Source: Pseudomonas sp. SLFW
GTDB taxonomy: Bacteria > Pseudomonadota > Gammaproteobacteria > Pseudomonadales > Pseudomonadaceae
Length of the DNA stretch: 64,000 nucleotides
Assembly: GCF_009905615.1 (NCBI RefSeq)
Contig: NZ_JAAAKW010000022.1
Coordinates: 1 to 64,000 of the forward strand
Reading direction: 5' to 3'
Below the pieces are notes generated by a model. The model searched no databases and was not told the origin of the DNA. It was given only the letters and a program-made list of their open reading frames with translations. This document shows, one piece after another, positions 2,753 to 10,191 of this stretch (position 1 is its first letter; each line of letters opens with the position of its first letter). The position numbers and the translations under genes were made by a program.

Positions 2753-2859
2753 GGCGCTTCCCTCTGAGGTCTCAGCGAAGGGAAGGCGCAAAGCAAACCA
2801 CTGACCGACGTCAGTAGCCAACTCAACAGCGCCCGCCCACCGCGGGTTTGTTATGTGAA

Positions 2860-3058
2860 TGTGTCGGGCCGGTCTCCGGGCTTGCGAGGGACAGTGGACC
2901 TGCCGTCAAGAATCACCTTCCCGTGCCGCAATGGCACAGTGGATCTGATTCTTCGCTCGCTTACCGTTGCGGGGGCAGCGCCGGACTTGCACAGACAAGA
3001 GGTCTGCACGCACCGGTTTCCCGTTTCACCCTGTGAAGGGCACCCGTAACAAGGCGTG
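2860..3058 (-). promoter_or_regulatory. Cobalamin riboswitch upstream of cbtB
   Basis: Read on the minus strand, the B12 box AAGCCCGGAGACCGGCC lies at 2867-2883, preceded by the conserved GCTGCCCCCGCAACGGTAAG segment and, further 5', the GGGTGCCC...GGGAAACCGGTGC stems. This order matches the AdoCbl/B12 riboswitch class. The cbtB ATG is about 110 bases downstream, leaving room for an expression platform. Bounds are approximate. Confidence 0.93.
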
Positions 3059-3144
3059 TAGGAGACCACGGAGCCGGTTGGCAGTCAATCGCAGCGCCGT
3101 TTCATCGTTGACCTTCCCCCGGCCACTGCGTAGCCTTGCGCACT

Positions 3145-3345
3145 TGAGGTTCGCTGCTCTGCTTGACTCGGACGCGGCGCTAAGAAGGGAATGTGGTGCA
3201 AGCCACAGCTGCCCCCGCAACTGTAAACGGTCATGTTCATTGCACAGCCACTGCGCGAGCGGGAAGGCGCGATGAATGCGTCTGATCTGGCAACACTGCC
3301 AGCCATTCGCCGCCGTGAGCCAGGAGACCTGCCTCGAACACGGGC
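3145..3345 (+). promoter_or_regulatory. Cobalamin riboswitch upstream of cobW
   Basis: On the plus strand, GCTGCCCCCGCAACTGTAAA at about 3208-3227 and the B12 box AGCCAGGAGACCTGCC at 3318-3333 identify a second B12 riboswitch. It precedes cobW by roughly 140 bases. It is arranged head to head with the cbtB riboswitch, so both transcripts start in the same short region. Bounds are approximate. Confidence 0.93.
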
Positions 3346-3482
3346 CTGTTTTTCAGACAGCCCGACGCATTCTCAACACAACCGGGCGGGGTGATCCGGT
3401 GGCGAATCGAACGGCGGGCCTGTCTTCTGCGAGGGCACGCGGTTCTCGTCCTGTTTGCCCGCCGCTGCGCCTGAGGGCAACC

Positions 3483-4553
3483 ATGAAAACACTGGCCAAA
3501 CTTCCCGTCACCATCGTCACCGGCTTTCTCGGCTCGGGCAAAACCACGCTGCTGCGCCACATGCTCGACAACGCTGAAGGCCGTCGCATTGCGGTGATCG
3601 TCAACGAATTCGGCGAGCTGGGCATCGACGGTGAAATCCTCAAGCAATGCACCATCGGTTGCACCGAAGAAGAAGCCAACGGCCGCGTCTACGAACTGGC
3701 CAACGGCTGCCTGTGCTGCACCGTTCAGGAAGAATTCTTCCCGGTGATGCAGGAACTGGTTGCTCGTCGCGGCGATCTGGACCACATCCTCATCGAAACC
3801 TCGGGCCTGGCGCTGCCAAAGCCGCTGGTCCAGGCTTTCCAGTGGCCGGAAATCCGCAACGCCTGCACCGTTGACGCCGTGATCACCGTGGTCGACAGCC
3901 CGGCCGTCATCGCCGGCACCTTCGCCGCCTTCCCGGATCAGGTCGATGCCCAGCGCAAACTCGACCCGAACCTGGACCACGAATCGCCGCTGCACGAACT
4001 GTTCGCCGACCAACTGGCCAGCGCTGACCTTGTCATCCTTAATAAGGCCGACATGCTCGACGCTGCTGCCTTGGCCGCCGTGCGCGCTGAAGTCGCCGAA
4101 GAACTGCCGCCTGCGGTGAAAGTCATCGAAGCCAGTAACGGCCAGCTGCCGATCAGCGTGCTGTTGGGCTTGGGTGCCGAATCCGAGCTGCACATCGATG
4201 GCCGCAAGACCCACCATGATCATCACGACGGCGATGACCACGACGACCACGATCACGACGCTTTCGATTCGATTTCCATCTCGCTGCCCCAGGCCGACGA
4301 AGCGCTGTTGCTCGACGCGCTGACCCAGGCCGTCGTGCAGCACGGCATCCTGCGCGTCAAAGGCTTCGCGGCGATTCCGGGCAAGCCGATGCGCCTGCTG
4401 GTGCAAGGCGTCGGCACACGTTTCGACAAACACTTCGACCGCGCGTGGAAAGCTGAAGAAGAGCGCGTCAGCCACTTCGTGCTGATTGGTCAGGAACTCG
4501 ACGCTGCCGTGCTGGAAGCCCAGTTGCGCGCCGCGCTTGAGATCAAAGGCTAA
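3483..4553 (+). CDS. cobW: CobW GTPase, cobalt chaperone for cobalamin synthesis
   Basis: COG0523 G3E GTPase of 356 residues, thought to deliver cobalt to the CobN chelatase. The P-loop is GFLGSGKTTLL near the N-terminus, the metal-site motif GCLCC at about residues 78-82, and NKAD is the base-recognition motif. A His/Asp-rich stretch (HHDHHDGDDHDDHDHD) sits between the GTPase and C-terminal CobW_C domains and is a likely metal reservoir. The start MKTLAKLP was chosen over an in-frame extension that would cover the riboswitch. The stop lies two bases before cobN. Confidence 0.95.
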   Translation: MKTLAKLPVTIVTGFLGSGKTTLLRHMLDNAEGRRIAVIVNEFGELGIDGEILKQCTIGCTEEEANGRVYELANGCLCCTVQEEFFPVMQELVARRGDLDHILIETSGLALPKPLVQAFQWPEIRNACTVDAVITVVDSPAVIAGTFAAFPDQVDAQRKLDPNLDHESPLHELFADQLASADLVILNKADMLDAAALAAVRAEVAEELPPAVKVIEASNGQLPISVLLGLGAESELHIDGRKTHHDHHDGDDHDDHDHDAFDSISISLPQADEALLLDALTQAVVQHGILRVKGFAAIPGKPMRLLVQGVGTRFDKHFDRAWKAEEERVSHFVLIGQELDAAVLEAQLRAALEIKG

Positions 4554-4555
4554 CC

Positions 4556-7500
4556 ATGCACCTGCTGCGCACCCAGCCCGGCGGCTTCGTCCCCGACGAC
4601 AGCATCGCTGACCTCGGCCAGACCCCCGCCGATCTGGTGATCCTGTGCAGCGGTGACTCCCATCTGGCGTTGCTCGCGGAAACCGCGCAGCAACTGCCGG
4701 ACGATTACCCCAGCCTGCGCCTGGCCAACCCCATGCAGGTGCAAAACCACGCCTCGGTCGACCTGTACGTCGAAGAGGTGCTGCAACACGCCAAGGTGAT
4801 TCTCATCTCGCTGCACGGCGGCATCGGCTACTGGCGCTACGGTGTCGAGCGGCTGGTGGAGCTGGCCTCTCGAAAGCACGGCGGGGTGAAGCTGATTCTG
4901 GTGCCTGGCGACGATCGCCCGGACCCGGAGCTCAGCGACCTCAGCACCGAACCTGCCGCGGACCGCGACCGGCTTTGGCACTACCTGCGCCAGGGCGGAA
5001 AACACAACGCGTTACAGCTGTTCAATTGCCTGGCCAATCGCTGGCTGGATCGCGATTACGCCTGGGACGAGCCGCAGACGCTGCCCCGGGTGGCGATCTA
5101 TCACCCGCGCAAGGCCAGCGCCGACCTCGCTGACTGGCAAGCCGACTGGCACGTCGATCAACCGGTGGCGGCGGTGCTGTTCTATCGCTCGCACTTGCAG
5201 GCGGCCAACACCGGGTTCATCGATGTGTTCTGTGAGCGGCTGTTGGCCCAGGGCCTTAACCCGTTGCCCATTGCGGTGGCCAGCCTGAAGGAACCGGCGT
5301 GCCTCAGTGCTGTGCAGGACTGGCTCGACGAGACCGAGTGCGAAGTCATCCTCAACACCACCGGTTTCGCCCAATCCAGCCCGGAAGCCCCGCACCTGCG
5401 ACCGTTTCGCCGCAACATTCCGGTGATTCAGGCGATCTGCGCCCAGGACAACGAACCCGCATGGCAAGCCAGCGAACAGGGCCTCGGCGCTCGGGATCTG
5501 GCCATGCACATCGCGCTGCCAGAACTGGACGGGCGCATCATCAGTCGGCCCATCAGCTTCAAGGACCTGGCCTGGCACAGCGAGCGCAGTCAGTCCGATG
5601 TGGTCTGCTACCGCGCCCAACCCGAACGCATGGATTTTGTCGCCGAACTGGCGCGACGCTGGGTGTTGCTGGCGCGCACGGCCAACGCCGACAAGCGTGT
5701 GGCGCTGATTCTGGCCAACTACCCGACCCGCGACGGGCGCATTGGCAACGGCGTCGGCCTTGACACTCCGGCAGCAGCGCTGAACATCCTAAAGGCCCTG
5801 CAAGACGAGGGCTATCCCGTCGAAGGCTTGCCGGCATCGGGCACCGCGCTGATTCATGCCTTGCTGGGCGGTGTCACCAACGACCCGGACAGTCTCGATC
5901 AGCGCCCTTGCCACCAGAGCATGGCAATGGACGACTACCTGGCGGCCTTTGATGCGCTACCTGAGGCCAATCGCGACGCCGTGATCGAGCGCTGGGGTTC
6001 ACCGCAGAGCGACCCGATGTGTCGCAACGGCCGAATGATGATCGCCGGGCTGCGTTTCGGCCTGACCTTTGTCGGCATTCAGCCGGCTCGGGGCTACAAC
6101 GTCGATCACAGCGCGGTTTATCACGATCCGGACCTCGTTCCGCCCCACGGCTACCTGGCCTTCTATTTCTGGCTGCGCAAGGCGTATGGCGCACTCGCGG
6201 TCATTCACGTCGGCAAGCACGGCAATCTCGAATGGCTGCCGGGCAAGGGCGTCGGCCTGTCCGAACAGTGCTGGCCGGACGCGATCCTCGGGCCGATGCC
6301 GAACATTTATCCGTTCATCGTCAACGACCCGGGTGAGGGCGCCCAAGCCAAGCGTCGCACGCAGGCCGTCATCATCGACCACCTGATGCCGCCCCTGACC
6401 CGCGCCGAAACCTACGGCCCATTACGCAATCTGGAATTGCTCGCGGACGAGTATTACGAAGCGCAGATGCTCGATCCGCGCCGCGCCCGTGAGCTGCAAA
6501 AGGATATTCTCAGGCTGGTGCGCGAAACCCACATCGACCGGGAACTGGCGCTGAGCGAAGACCTCGACAGCGATGCCGATGCCGCGATCTGGTTGCCCCG
6601 GCTGGACACGTACCTGTGTGATCTGAAGGAATCGCAGATCCGCGACGGGCTGCACGTGTTTGGCGAATCCCCGAGCGGGCGACTGCGTATTGATACCTTG
6701 GTGGCGATCCTGCGGGTGCCCCGTGGCGATGGCCGGGGGGCGAATGCCAGTCTACTGCGGACCTTGAGCAACGCGCTGGCGATGGGTTTTGACCCGTTGG
6801 ACTGCGAGTTGGGTGCGCCGTGGGCGGGGCCGACACCTCAGGTTTTACATGAAGTCAGTGATGATCCGTGGCGCACGGTAGGGGATACACGGGAACGGCT
6901 GGAGCTGTATGCAGCGCGTTTGATTGAGCAGATCGCGAGCGGTATTCAAGATGTTAATTCATTTGAAAACAACGAATTAACTGAAGTTGTTAATGCAATT
7001 ACACAGGTCGTAATGCCGCGTCTCGACAGCTGTGGGCCTGCTGAACTTCAAGGCTTGCTGGATGCGCTGAGTGGCCGTTTTGTCCCGGCAGGCCCCAGTG
7101 GCGCGCCGAGTCGCGGGCGGCTGGACGTGCTGCCGACAGGGCGTAATTTCTTCTCGGTGGACGTGCGCAACCTGCCGACCATGACCGCGTGGCGCATCGG
7201 CTTTCAATCAGCAAATCTCTTGCTGGAAAGGCACTTACAAGACAATGGTGACTATTTACGTCAACTGGGCTTGTCGGTCTGGGGCACGGCGACCATGCGC
7301 ACCGGAGGCGACGACATTGCCCAGGCCATGGCGCTGATGGGCGTGCGTCCGGTGTGGGCGGCGGGGAGTCAGCGGGTTGACGATTTCGAGATTTTGCCCC
7401 TGAGTTTGCTGGACCGGCCACGGGTGGATGTCACGCTGAGGGTGTCGGGATTCTTCCGCGATGCTTTCGCCAACCTCATTCGCTTGTTTGATGCCGCCGT

Positions 7501-8329
7501 GCAAGCCGTCGCCGCGCTGGATGAGCCCGACGACATGAATCCGCTTGCCGCCCGCGTTCGTCAGGAGCGCGAGCAACTGGAGGGCGAAGGCTTGAGCGTC
7601 GAACAGGCGGCGAAACAGGCTGGCTGGCGCATCTTTGGTGCCAAACCGGGGGCCTATGGCGCGGGTGTACAGAACGCCATTGACGGCCGCCTGTGGCAAA
7701 CGCGGCAAGACTTGGCTGAGGTGTACCTGAACTGGGGCGGCTATGCCTATGGCGCCGCCGATGAAGGCACCCCCGCGCGCAACGACTTCGCCAAACGCCT
7801 GAGCCAGGTCCAAGCCGTGGTGCAGAATCAGGACAACCGCGAGCACGACCTGCTCGACTCCAACGACTATTACCAGTTTCAGGGCGGCATGCTGGCAGCG
7901 GTGGAAAGCCTCAGCGGCGACAAGGTGGCGAGCTACCACGGCGACCACAGCCAGCCAGACTTGCCGAAAATCCATACCTTGAAAGAAGAGCTGAACCGGG
8001 TGGTGCGTTCGCGGGCGGCGAATCCGAAATGGATCGAAGGCGTCAAACGGCACGGCTATAAAGGCGCGTTCGAAATGGCGGCGACCGTGGATTTCCTGTT
8101 CGCGTTCGATGCGACGACCGAGCTGATCGACGATCACCAATACGCGTTGCTGGCGGACGCCTACCTGCTCGACGCCTCGACGCGGGACTTCATCCAGCAA
8201 CACAATCCCGATACCCTGCGCGACATGACCGAGCGGATGCTGGAAGCTCAGCAGCGCGGGTTGTGGCAGGAACCGGGCGAGTACCGCGCGGCGCTGGAAA
8301 ACCTGTTGTTGGATATTGAAGAGACATGA
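4556..8329 (+). CDS. cobN: Cobaltochelatase large subunit CobN
   Basis: The ATP-dependent cobaltochelatase subunit that binds hydrogenobyrinic acid a,c-diamide and inserts cobalt. At 1257 residues it is full length for CobN/ChlH proteins. The GKHGNLEWLPGKGVGLS segment is the family signature. It follows cobW by two bases and precedes the small/medium chelatase gene after a REPIN-bearing gap. Two short stretches around 6950-7015 and 7203-7262 use AT-rich, TTA/AAT-type codons unlike the rest, although the frame is uninterrupted. Confidence 0.96.
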   Translation: MHLLRTQPGGFVPDDSIADLGQTPADLVILCSGDSHLALLAETAQQLPDDYPSLRLANPMQVQNHASVDLYVEEVLQHAKVILISLHGGIGYWRYGVERLVELASRKHGGVKLILVPGDDRPDPELSDLSTEPAADRDRLWHYLRQGGKHNALQLFNCLANRWLDRDYAWDEPQTLPRVAIYHPRKASADLADWQADWHVDQPVAAVLFYRSHLQAANTGFIDVFCERLLAQGLNPLPIAVASLKEPACLSAVQDWLDETECEVILNTTGFAQSSPEAPHLRPFRRNIPVIQAICAQDNEPAWQASEQGLGARDLAMHIALPELDGRIISRPISFKDLAWHSERSQSDVVCYRAQPERMDFVAELARRWVLLARTANADKRVALILANYPTRDGRIGNGVGLDTPAAALNILKALQDEGYPVEGLPASGTALIHALLGGVTNDPDSLDQRPCHQSMAMDDYLAAFDALPEANRDAVIERWGSPQSDPMCRNGRMMIAGLRFGLTFVGIQPARGYNVDHSAVYHDPDLVPPHGYLAFYFWLRKAYGALAVIHVGKHGNLEWLPGKGVGLSEQCWPDAILGPMPNIYPFIVNDPGEGAQAKRRTQAVIIDHLMPPLTRAETYGPLRNLELLADEYYEAQMLDPRRARELQKDILRLVRETHIDRELALSEDLDSDADAAIWLPRLDTYLCDLKESQIRDGLHVFGESPSGRLRIDTLVAILRVPRGDGRGANASLLRTLSNALAMGFDPLDCELGAPWAGPTPQVLHEVSDDPWRTVGDTRERLELYAARLIEQIASGIQDVNSFENNELTEVVNAITQVVMPRLDSCGPAELQGLLDALSGRFVPAGPSGAPSRGRLDVLPTGRNFFSVDVRNLPTMTAWRIGFQSANLLLERHLQDNGDYLRQLGLSVWGTATMRTGGDDIAQAMALMGVRPVWAAGSQRVDDFEILPLSLLDRPRVDVTLRVSGFFRDAFANLIRLFDAAVQAVAALDEPDDMNPLAARVRQEREQLEGEGLSVEQAAKQAGWRIFGAKPGAYGAGVQNAIDGRLWQTRQDLAEVYLNWGGYAYGAADEGTPARNDFAKRLSQVQAVVQNQDNREHDLLDSNDYYQFQGGMLAAVESLSGDKVASYHGDHSQPDLPKIHTLKEELNRVVRSRAANPKWIEGVKRHGYKGAFEMAATVDFLFAFDATTELIDDHQYALLADAYLLDASTRDFIQQHNPDTLRDMTERMLEAQQRGLWQEPGEYRAALENLLLDIEET

Positions 8330-8377: not shown

Positions 8378-8468
8378 CTGGGGAGCGAATTCATTCGCGA
8401 GGCGTCGGTGTATTCGCCACATGTGTGTCGGTCGATCGACCGCATCGCGAATGAATTCGCTCCCACAG
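8378..8468. repeat. REPIN 3
   Basis: Inverted GGGAGCGAATTCATTCGCGA / TCGCGAATGAATTCGCTCCC arms between cobN and the chelatase ATPase gene, within the same transcription unit. Confidence 0.88.
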
Positions 8469-8515: not shown

Positions 8516-9526
8516 ATGACCGACACCCCTCATTTCCCCCTGGCCGCCGTCGTGGGCGCCGACGCGCTGAAACTGGCGCTGTGCCTGACCGCCATCGACC
8601 CGAAAATCGGCGGGGTGTTGATCGAGGGGCCGCGGGGTATGGCCAAGTCCACCCTGGCCCGTGGGCTCGCTGACCTGTTGGCCAGCGGTCAGTTCGTCAC
8701 GCTGCCGTTGGGTGCGACCGAGGAGCGGCTGGTGGGCACGCTGGACCTGGACGCGGCGCTGGGGGAAGGGCGGGCGCGGTTTTCGCCGGGGGTCTTGGCC
8801 AAGGCTGATGGCGGCGTGCTCTATGTCGATGAAGTCAACCTGTTGCCGGATCACCTGGTCGACCTGCTGCTGGACGTGGCGGCCAGCGGGGTCAATCAGG
8901 TCGAGCGCGACGGTATTTCCCATCGTCACCCGGCGCGCTTCGTGCTGATCGGCACCATGAACCCGGAAGAAGGTGAATTGCGTCCACAGCTGCTCGACCG
9001 CTTCGGCCTGAACGTCGCGTTGAGCGGCCAGACCTTGCCCGAGCAGCGTGGCCAGATCATTCGCCGTCGGCTGGACTTCGACGCGGACCCTGAAGCGTTT
9101 TGTCAGCAATGGGCAACCCAACAGCAACAGCTCAAAGACCGTTGCGAAAACGCCCGAGGCCTGTTGTCGGGCATCGAACTGGACGACGTCAGCCTCGCTG
9201 CTATCACCGAGCGCTGTTTCGCGGCGGGGGTCGATGGGCTGCGGGCGGACCTTGTCTGGCTGCGCGCTGCCCGTGCCCATGCGGCATGGCGGGGCGCTTC
9301 GGCCATTACGGACGAAGACATCGATGCCGTGGCCGAATTCGCCTTGCGCCATCGACGTCGTGAGGCTCCACCACCCCAGTCGCCAGCGGCCTCGCAACCG
9401 GACGCGCCCGCGCACGCACCCCACACGCAAAAAGAGCAGGGCGACGGCCAATGGGGTGAACTGCCCGCCCAGACTGTCGCCACCGGTGCTCGCCGGGAAG
9501 TGCCCAGCTGGCCAAAAAAGCCCTAG
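8516..9526 (+). CDS. Chelatase AAA+ ATPase subunit (ChlI/BchI-like), zero-frame product
   Basis: MoxR/ChlI-type AAA+ ATPase of 336 residues that powers cobalt insertion by CobN. Walker A is GPRGMAKST (residues 38-46) and Walker B is VLYVDEVNLL (101-110); TMNPEEGELRPQLLDRFGL is the sensor/arginine-finger region. Beyond about residue 280 the protein turns into the Pro-rich acidic-type linker that in ChlD joins the ATPase to the VWA domain. The frame ends TGG CCA AAA AAG CCC TAG inside a strong -1 frameshift signal. This short form would be the I-type subunit and the shifted form the D-type subunit. Confidence 0.93.
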   Translation: MTDTPHFPLAAVVGADALKLALCLTAIDPKIGGVLIEGPRGMAKSTLARGLADLLASGQFVTLPLGATEERLVGTLDLDAALGEGRARFSPGVLAKADGGVLYVDEVNLLPDHLVDLLLDVAASGVNQVERDGISHRHPARFVLIGTMNPEEGELRPQLLDRFGLNVALSGQTLPEQRGQIIRRRLDFDADPEAFCQQWATQQQQLKDRCENARGLLSGIELDDVSLAAITERCFAAGVDGLRADLVWLRAARAHAAWRGASAITDEDIDAVAEFALRHRRREAPPPQSPAASQPDAPAHAPHTQKEQGDGQWGELPAQTVATGARREVPSWPKKP

Positions 9527-9561
9527 GCATTCGCCCTCGCCTTAAGACGGGGGCGGATGCC
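9514..9561 (+). promoter_or_regulatory. Programmed -1 ribosomal frameshift signal
   Basis: The heptamer A AAA AAG at 9514-9520 is in the exact zero-frame phase used by dnaX. Five bases later a 14-bp stem starts: 9526-9539 pairs with 9548-9561, with only two G-U pairs and an 8-base loop. The zero-frame stop TAG (9524-9526) sits between them. A weak Shine-Dalgarno-like GGGAAG (9495-9500) lies upstream. A -1 slip continues into the VWA frame without a stop for 223 codons. Programmed frameshifting in chlD genes of cobalt-chelatase loci has been reported. Confidence 0.85.
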
Positions 9562-10191
9562 AGCCCCCGACCGGGTCGACTCAACGGCGGTAAAAGCGGT
9601 GCTGCCCGTTCCGGGACCGACGGCGCCATTGCCTGGCTGCCGACGCTGTTGAAAGGCCGCCCCCAGCGCCGCGCCGATCTGGTTCGCCAGCCGCGAACCC
9701 GGCGTGAACAGACCCTGTGGCTGGTGATCGTCGACGCCTCGGCCTCGACCCGACGCCATCAAGCGTTGAGCCTCGCCAAAGGCGTTCTCGCGCAGCTGTT
9801 CGATGACGCGTATCGCCAGCGGGCGAGGTTGGCGTTGTTGACCGCCGGCGGTGCGCAGGCGCGCTGGCAGCATCACGGCCTGAAAGCAGGCTCGGCGTTG
9901 CAGCCGTGGCTGGAAACGTTGGGGGCGGGGGGTGGGACGCCGCTGTTCGAGGCCATCGAAGAGGCAGGGCAGTGGCTGGGCAAACGCCAGCAACGTCATC
10001 CGGGCGAATCGCAACGGGTGCTGATCCTGACAGATGGCCGCGTGAAGGACATTCCGCCTCTCACGGGCTTCCACTGCCCGAGCCTGTTGATCGACATCGA
10101 GCGTGGGCCCATCCGGCTGGGAAGGGCCGTCGAACTCGCCCGTCAATTGAACGCCGAATACCGGCATATCGATGCATTGACGGACGCTTGA
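9520..10191 (+). CDS. VWA domain of the chelatase D-type subunit, -1 frame part of a ChlI-ChlD fusion
   Basis: The -1 frame is open from 9460 to 10191 and contains no ATG or GTG before the VWA domain; the first possible start is a TTG at 9649. Joined through the frameshift at 9520 it extends the ATPase to about 558 residues. The joined part reads ALGIRPRLKTGADASPRPGR, then AIAWLPTLLKGRPQRRADLV, then the MIDAS motif VIVDASAST. This is the layout of ChlD/BchD medium subunits. GGGTPLFEAI and LTDGRVKD complete the metal-ion site. I read it as the C-terminal half of one gene, not a separate gene or a pseudogene. Confidence 0.85.
   Translation, partial: ALGIRPRLKTGADASPRPGRLNGGKSGAARSGTDGAIAWLPTLLKGRPQRRADLVRQPRTRREQTLWLVIVDASASTRRHQALSLAKGVLAQLFDDAYRQRARLALLTAGGAQARWQHHGLKAGSALQPWLETLGAGGGTPLFEAIEEAGQWLGKRQQRHPGESQRVLILTDGRVKDIPPLTGFHCPSLLIDIERGPIRLGRAVELARQLNAEYRHIDALTDA

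Follow-up and report, generated by a model that had tools for sequence, protein, structure and literature searches.

A Pseudomonas chlD gene with a conserved signal for programmed -1 frameshifting, predicted to encode two cobalt chelatase subunits

The sequence comparisons presented here strongly suggested that the chlD gene in a 64,000-nucleotide stretch of Pseudomonas DNA (the whole stretch that was analysed, hereafter the window) is a Pseudomonas fs-chlD gene, in which programmed -1 frameshifting very probably yields a ChlI-like and a ChlD-like cobalt chelatase subunit. The comparative tests supported this reading, aside from the exceptions listed below. The phenomenon is not new, because Antonov 2013, Atkins 2016, and Kuznetsov 2022 report it for Pseudomonas, and the chlD frameshift signal of this genus is thus already known and in print. 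For that reason, the locus is chiefly useful as a model for the questions of what determines the I:D ratio and why fused relatives seem to manage without a separate small subunit. It offers a clean and testable case, in which one gene would give two chelatase subunits and its second half lacks an ATG or GTG start. There were two side results: a purine-rich hairpin arm was not a general feature, and fused relatives were often without a recognizable small-subunit gene.

The chlD junction, its products, and its operon

The features of the window that bear on the argument are as follows.

3130 to 3350, plus strand: cobalamin riboswitch upstream of cobW-cobN-chlD (Rfam RF00174, 102.3 bits)
3483 to 4553, plus strand: cobW (TIGR02475, 527.9 bits), with ATG 3483 as the likely start
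4556 to 8329, plus strand: cobN, aerobic cobalt chelatase large subunit (TIGR02257, 1744 bits, over the cut-off)
8516 to 9526, plus strand: zero-frame ORF for the 336-aa ChlI-like short product (AAA ATPase plus lid), ending in TAG 9524-9526
9514 to 9520, plus strand: slippery heptamer A_AAA_AAG, its phase taken from the reading frame
9520 to 10191, plus strand: -1 frame extension, a linker plus a VWA domain with a DASAS motif (VWA_2, BchD chain, and TIGR02442 matches)
9526 to 9561, plus strand: putative stimulatory hairpin of 14 bp with an 8-nt loop (arms 9526-9539 and 9548-9561; fold z of -3.5, pair counts)

A preliminary description of the window had claimed an in-phase heptamer, a 5-base spacer and a 14-bp stem near the zero-frame stop, and a -1 frame that runs into a VWA domain without an ATG or GTG of its own; all of these claims, including the stem coordinates, held. 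The heptamer was in phase because the codons read CCA(9512) AAA(9515) AAG(9518), followed by CCC(9521) and TAG(9524). An A-rich heptamer in zero-frame phase therefore lay just ahead of the zero-frame stop, as in fs-chlD genes. The hairpin started 5 nt past the heptamer and had two G-U pairs among its 14, and G9526 doubled as the final base of TAG and the opening base of the stem. The -1 frame opened 54 nt before the slip and, by ORF reading, ended with its stop at 10191. No ATG or GTG was found in this frame between its opening and 150 nt past the slip, and its earliest start-like codon was TTG 9649, 135 nt past the slip.

The fold behind the heptamer stood out from its surroundings. The 64-kb window held six A6G sites on the two strands, and the 40 nt behind the site at 9514-9520 folded with -28.4 kcal/mol, compared to -3 to -13 at the other five. 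The 55-nt segment 9521-9575 folded with -31 kcal/mol, relative to a shuffled mean of -20.8 (z of -3.5), and one of 200 shuffles did as well.

The two products were also as first described: a short ChlI-like product of 336 aa and a shifted ChlD-like product of about 558 aa. The zero-frame product carried the Pfam AAA_5 and AAA_lid_2 domains and matched solved ChlI/BchI chains with E-values from 3e-87 to 6e-81. The -1 part matched VWA_2 (33.8 bits) and the BchD chain 2x31 (E of 1.5e-6), and its DASAS motif is one that we take to be MIDAS-like. Thus, the gene had the fs-chlD layout of a ChlI-like N-terminal part and a D-subunit VWA domain in the -1 frame. The joined product of 558 aa scored 487.5 bits against TIGR02442 (putative cobaltochelatase), a model that covers both parts and gave the first part alone 418.5 bits. 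Because 487.5 bits is below the curated cut-off of 779, the joined product is a relative and not a member by that model. Similarly, the short product scored 347.7 bits against the BchI-ChlI equivalog TIGR02030 (cut-off, 467), so it is ChlI-like and not a magnesium chelatase I subunit by that model. The TIGR02030 cut-off was reached by none of 14 control genomes and by four of 13 class relatives; given the result for the controls, E-values were used for the ChlI calls.

The genomic context pointed to a cobalt chelatase. The claim that chlD lies beside cobN and downstream of a B12 riboswitch agreed with the RF00174 match at 3130-3350 and the TIGR02257 match just upstream of chlD. The window's genome has 6.49 Mb in 55 contigs and a listed completeness of 100%; in it, CobS and CobT gave no match at E of 1e-3. 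With cobN present and cobS and cobT not found, the genome had the make-up of an aerobic cobalt chelatase in which chlD/chlI replaces cobT/cobS. Besides the chlD gene, the genome contained no second ChlI better than E of 1e-5; the three weak ChlI matches ranged from 1.3e-5 to 7.4e-5, and there were five further TIGR02442 matches (E of 2e-8 to 4e-4).

Several other elements were seen around the operon. The longest cobW ORF begins at 3276, within the riboswitch. A second cobalamin riboswitch (2850-3062, minus strand) lies back to back with the one at 3130-3350 (plus strand), the two pointing apart, and it faces a minus-strand ORF at 1830-2660. An inverted pair at 8383-8467, between cobN and chlD, is presumably REP-like; its 105-nt fold had -58.8 kcal/mol, and its core occurred at 18 sites in the window, counting both strands and its own pair.

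The signal suggests the following scheme. Part of the ribosomes would halt at TAG 9524 and free the ChlI-like AAA+ ATPase. Other ribosomes, delayed by the hairpin 5 nt downstream while their P-site and A-site lysine tRNAs are on A_AAA_AAG, would slip to AAA_AAA and continue in the -1 frame, so that the shifted product would gain the medium (D/CobT-like) subunit's VWA domain. The two products would then join CobN for cobalt insertion in aerobic B12 synthesis. We infer the slippage at this locus and its efficiency, as well as the chelatase membership of both products.

Conservation of the heptamer, the stop, and the hairpin

The preliminary description had proposed an alignment of homologous loci as a check on the heptamer and the stem, and both proved to be conserved. 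The homologue set comprised the best 80 of at least 584 loci encoding a relative, plus the window (81 sequences). The nearest loci among these 80 had 88% protein identity, and they assigned the window to a Pseudomonas. Sixty-nine sequences were split, nine were single ORFs of 548 to 632 aa, and three (L062, L067, and L069) ended ahead of the stop codon, which left 78 of 81 readable to the stop. The split sequences carried A_AAA_AAG in 64 of 69 cases, window included, and A_AAA_AAA in the other five, always in phase. The gap from heptamer to stop was 3 nt in 68 of the 69 and 0 nt in one. Past the slip, the -1 frame was open for at least 200 codons in 68 of 69, compared to 26 codons in L070. In addition, cobN was located immediately upstream in 71 of the best 80 loci, the other nine being L070 and all but one of the fused loci. 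In L041 (3990-3999) and in L154 of genome G302, the stop directly abuts the AAG (AAAAAAG TAA) and the hairpin is kept; this placement is a natural variant for stop spacing.

The genus gave a similar picture. The gene was present in 113 of 119 genomes drawn evenly from the genus, the window's own included. The pattern GGNCAAAAAAGNNNTRRGC occurred in 99 of the 113, each time also where the gene match ended when coordinates were compared by eye, and 10 further genomes had A_AAA_AAG in phase with different flanks or stop spacing. Since the junction of G304 was cut at a contig edge, 112 junctions were readable, and A_AAA_AAG was in phase at 109 of them. In G234 and G298, TAG was now CAG and the zero frame stopped 7 codons past AAG. 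G280 had C_AAA_AAG instead, and its VWA part matched in two frames. G262 and G308 had no heptamer, and the gene was broken elsewhere, too.

For the hairpin, pairs were counted in 57 of the 69 split sequences (54 distinct; 756 cells). Twelve were omitted due to indels or a different hairpin (L045, L051, L052, L065, L068, L070, L078, L079, L083, L084, L085, and L088). In the 54 distinct sequences, 92.2% of the cells were paired, compared to 33 to 53% in slid registers. Cells changed on both sides numbered 21, versus 5.0 in shuffles (none of 500 reached 21) and at most 12 when slid, and the covariation score was 0.137, versus 0.104 in shuffles (none of 500 reached it) and at most 0.116 when slid. 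As in fs-chlD genes, a downstream RNA structure was thus indicated, although two of the five pair measures were not clear of the controls: the pairs with changes on both sides numbered four (mean in shuffles, 1.2; 7 of 500 shuffles and two of six slid registers reached this number), and the 11 further pair types were reached in 37 of 500 shuffles and surpassed in one slid register. The shuffle figures are weakened because the rows are related.

In the outer stem, six neighboring pairs were intact in all 54 distinct sequences. At one of these, pair 18/43, C-G occurred 25 times, U-A 18 times, and U-G 11 times, and C-A did not occur. The 12 TGA rows in the count kept the outer stem save for its first pair, and their upper stem was irregular. 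Of the 69 split sequences, 61 had a predicted fold whose longest 5' arm started 5 or 6 nt past the heptamer.

Two candidate additions to the signal were rejected. An SD-like upstream stimulator was at best slight: 19 nt ahead of the heptamer, the mean anti-SD energy was -2.2 kcal/mol, compared to a background of -1.5, and 18 of 69 sequences reached -5 kcal/mol or lower somewhere between offsets -22 and -9 (the window had -4.5). A triplex with a long purine arm was also considered. Read in 62 of the 69 sequences, the loop and 3' arm had a longest purine run of 5 in 37 of 44 TAG loci and of 3 in 12 of 17 TGA loci; therefore, a long purine arm was not a general feature.

Other explanations for the split gene

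The principal alternative is that chlD is two separate genes and that the VWA ORF is translated by re-initiation, for example at the available TTG 9649, without a frameshift. Start-like codons did recur among the 69 split sequences (at +132 in 31, +135 in 7, and -63 in 26). However, in 23 of the 69, the window among them, neither ATG nor GTG occurred between the point where the -1 frame opens and +150 nt, and four lacked even a TTG there. Re-initiation also gives no reason for the kept heptamer phase, spacing, and hairpin. We consider independent translation of the VWA part unlikely, and the two-gene explanation as a whole very unlikely.

A shift that arises during transcription, by slippage on the A6 run, and not on the ribosome seemed more improbable still. 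Runs of A do serve transcriptional slippage in some genes, and published fs-chlD cassettes had 7, 9, and 11 A in the part of that paper used here (PMC3711429). The run at the window locus has only six A, and an in-phase heptamer with a hairpin at fixed spacing is a ribosomal design.

A sequencing error or gene decay is scarcely credible: although the gene was also broken elsewhere in 2 of the 113 genomes that have it (G262 and G308), the conservation of A_AAA_AAG at the genus junctions already refutes this explanation, and in 61 loci compared to the window the third codon positions varied most both before (0.48 versus 0.17 and 0.11) and after the break (0.55 versus 0.33 and 0.22). Programmed -1 frameshifting therefore remained the preferred reading, and conservation of the signal, the domains of the products, and the operon context supported the original proposal that the I and D subunits come from one gene.

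That the frameshift ratio is regulated, for instance through an effect of divalent cobalt or a corrin on the GC-rich hairpin, is a long shot. If true, the I:D ratio would tune the chelatase on top of the operon's B12 riboswitch.

Fused relatives and known systems

To place the split gene among more distant relatives, 229 genomes of the class were sampled, and 14, including the window's own, had matches at E of 1e-30. The other 13 comprised three split genes with an A-rich heptamer (G145, G157, and G191), six fused genes (G018, G026, G028, G051, G056, and G193; loci L104, L105, L108, L109, L110, and L115), and four ChlI genes of a separate I/D pair. G157 and G191 had their VWA match in the -1 frame, and the VWA part of G145 had no BLAST match at 1e-3. 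The split locus of G191 (L103) had a longer A run. CobN was over the cut-off in nine of the 13, namely, those with split and fused genes.

No second full-length ChlI was found in the six fused relatives (G026 had one 49-residue piece), and CobS was over the cut-off in G051 (L108) only. Thus, G018, G026, G028, G056, and G193 had CobN over the cut-off but neither CobS over its cut-off nor a separate ChlI of full length. Because five of the six had no recognizable small-subunit gene, the need for the short product may not be universal. Although small in number, the fused relatives tell against a distinct small subunit always being needed.

A reverse signal of the dnaX type in fused genes was rejected, since the nine fused loci of the homologue set shared no heptamer. 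The A6 heptamer was absent beyond residue 250 in all nine. Other heptamers occurred in four of them; in L074 and L077 they lay near residue 304, followed by a -1 stop after 10 codons, and the remaining loci did not share them. When eight heptamer types were scanned in the six fused class relatives, five had none; the fused gene of G018, whose genome measures 0.4 Mb, has many A runs and had many heptamers, which are of little meaning.

Antonov 2020 (Mol Biol Evol) is reportedly the main paper on the fs-chlD idea. The preliminary description had noted that frameshifting in chlD genes was known, and this is true of Pseudomonas, including a nearly identical hairpin (PMC3711429, PMC5009743, and PMC9227772, each as far as the parts drawn on here go). 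Antonov 2013 described a 'magnesium chelatase' cluster with 23 fs-genes in six genera including Pseudomonas, and in E. coli three fs-chlD cassettes shifted with efficiencies of 63, 40, and 10% (PMC3711429). The sections of that paper used here give none of the tested cassettes, with their 7, 9, and 11 A, as Pseudomonas, and the window heptamer differs from them in having six. Archaeal cases are repeated in a section of PMC8211752. For P. aeruginosa, both Co-chelatase subunits are assigned to fs-chlD in Table 1, stage 8, of Kuznetsov 2022 (PMC9227772). The fs-chlD of these reports and the window gene thus share the gene, the genus, and the -1 shift, and the Co-chelatase role was proposed in 2022; in the parts drawn on here, the locus of the window's species is not mentioned by name.

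The closest published structure is the P. protegens chlD hairpin in Atkins 2016 (PMC5009743), which, in the portion drawn on here, places A_AAA_AAR in chlD under strong purifying selection and describes the hairpin sequence as not strongly conserved. The P. protegens and window loci have the shift site, the stop position and, save for one base (C-G in P. protegens, U-G in the window), the outer stem in common; the loop and a few stem bases differ. The same source suggests a triplex and cation binding, so a regulatory, cation-linked role has already been raised for the chlD structure. That triplex would need a purine run, which is shorter in the TGA loci of our homologue set.

Finally, the window locus resembles E. 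coli dnaX, as far as the source material covers it, in A_AAA_AAG, a downstream hairpin, and two proteins that share an N-terminus. The SD-like stimulator present in dnaX is at best slight at chlD here. The two systems also differ in the outcome of the shift, since the shifted product of dnaX is the short one.
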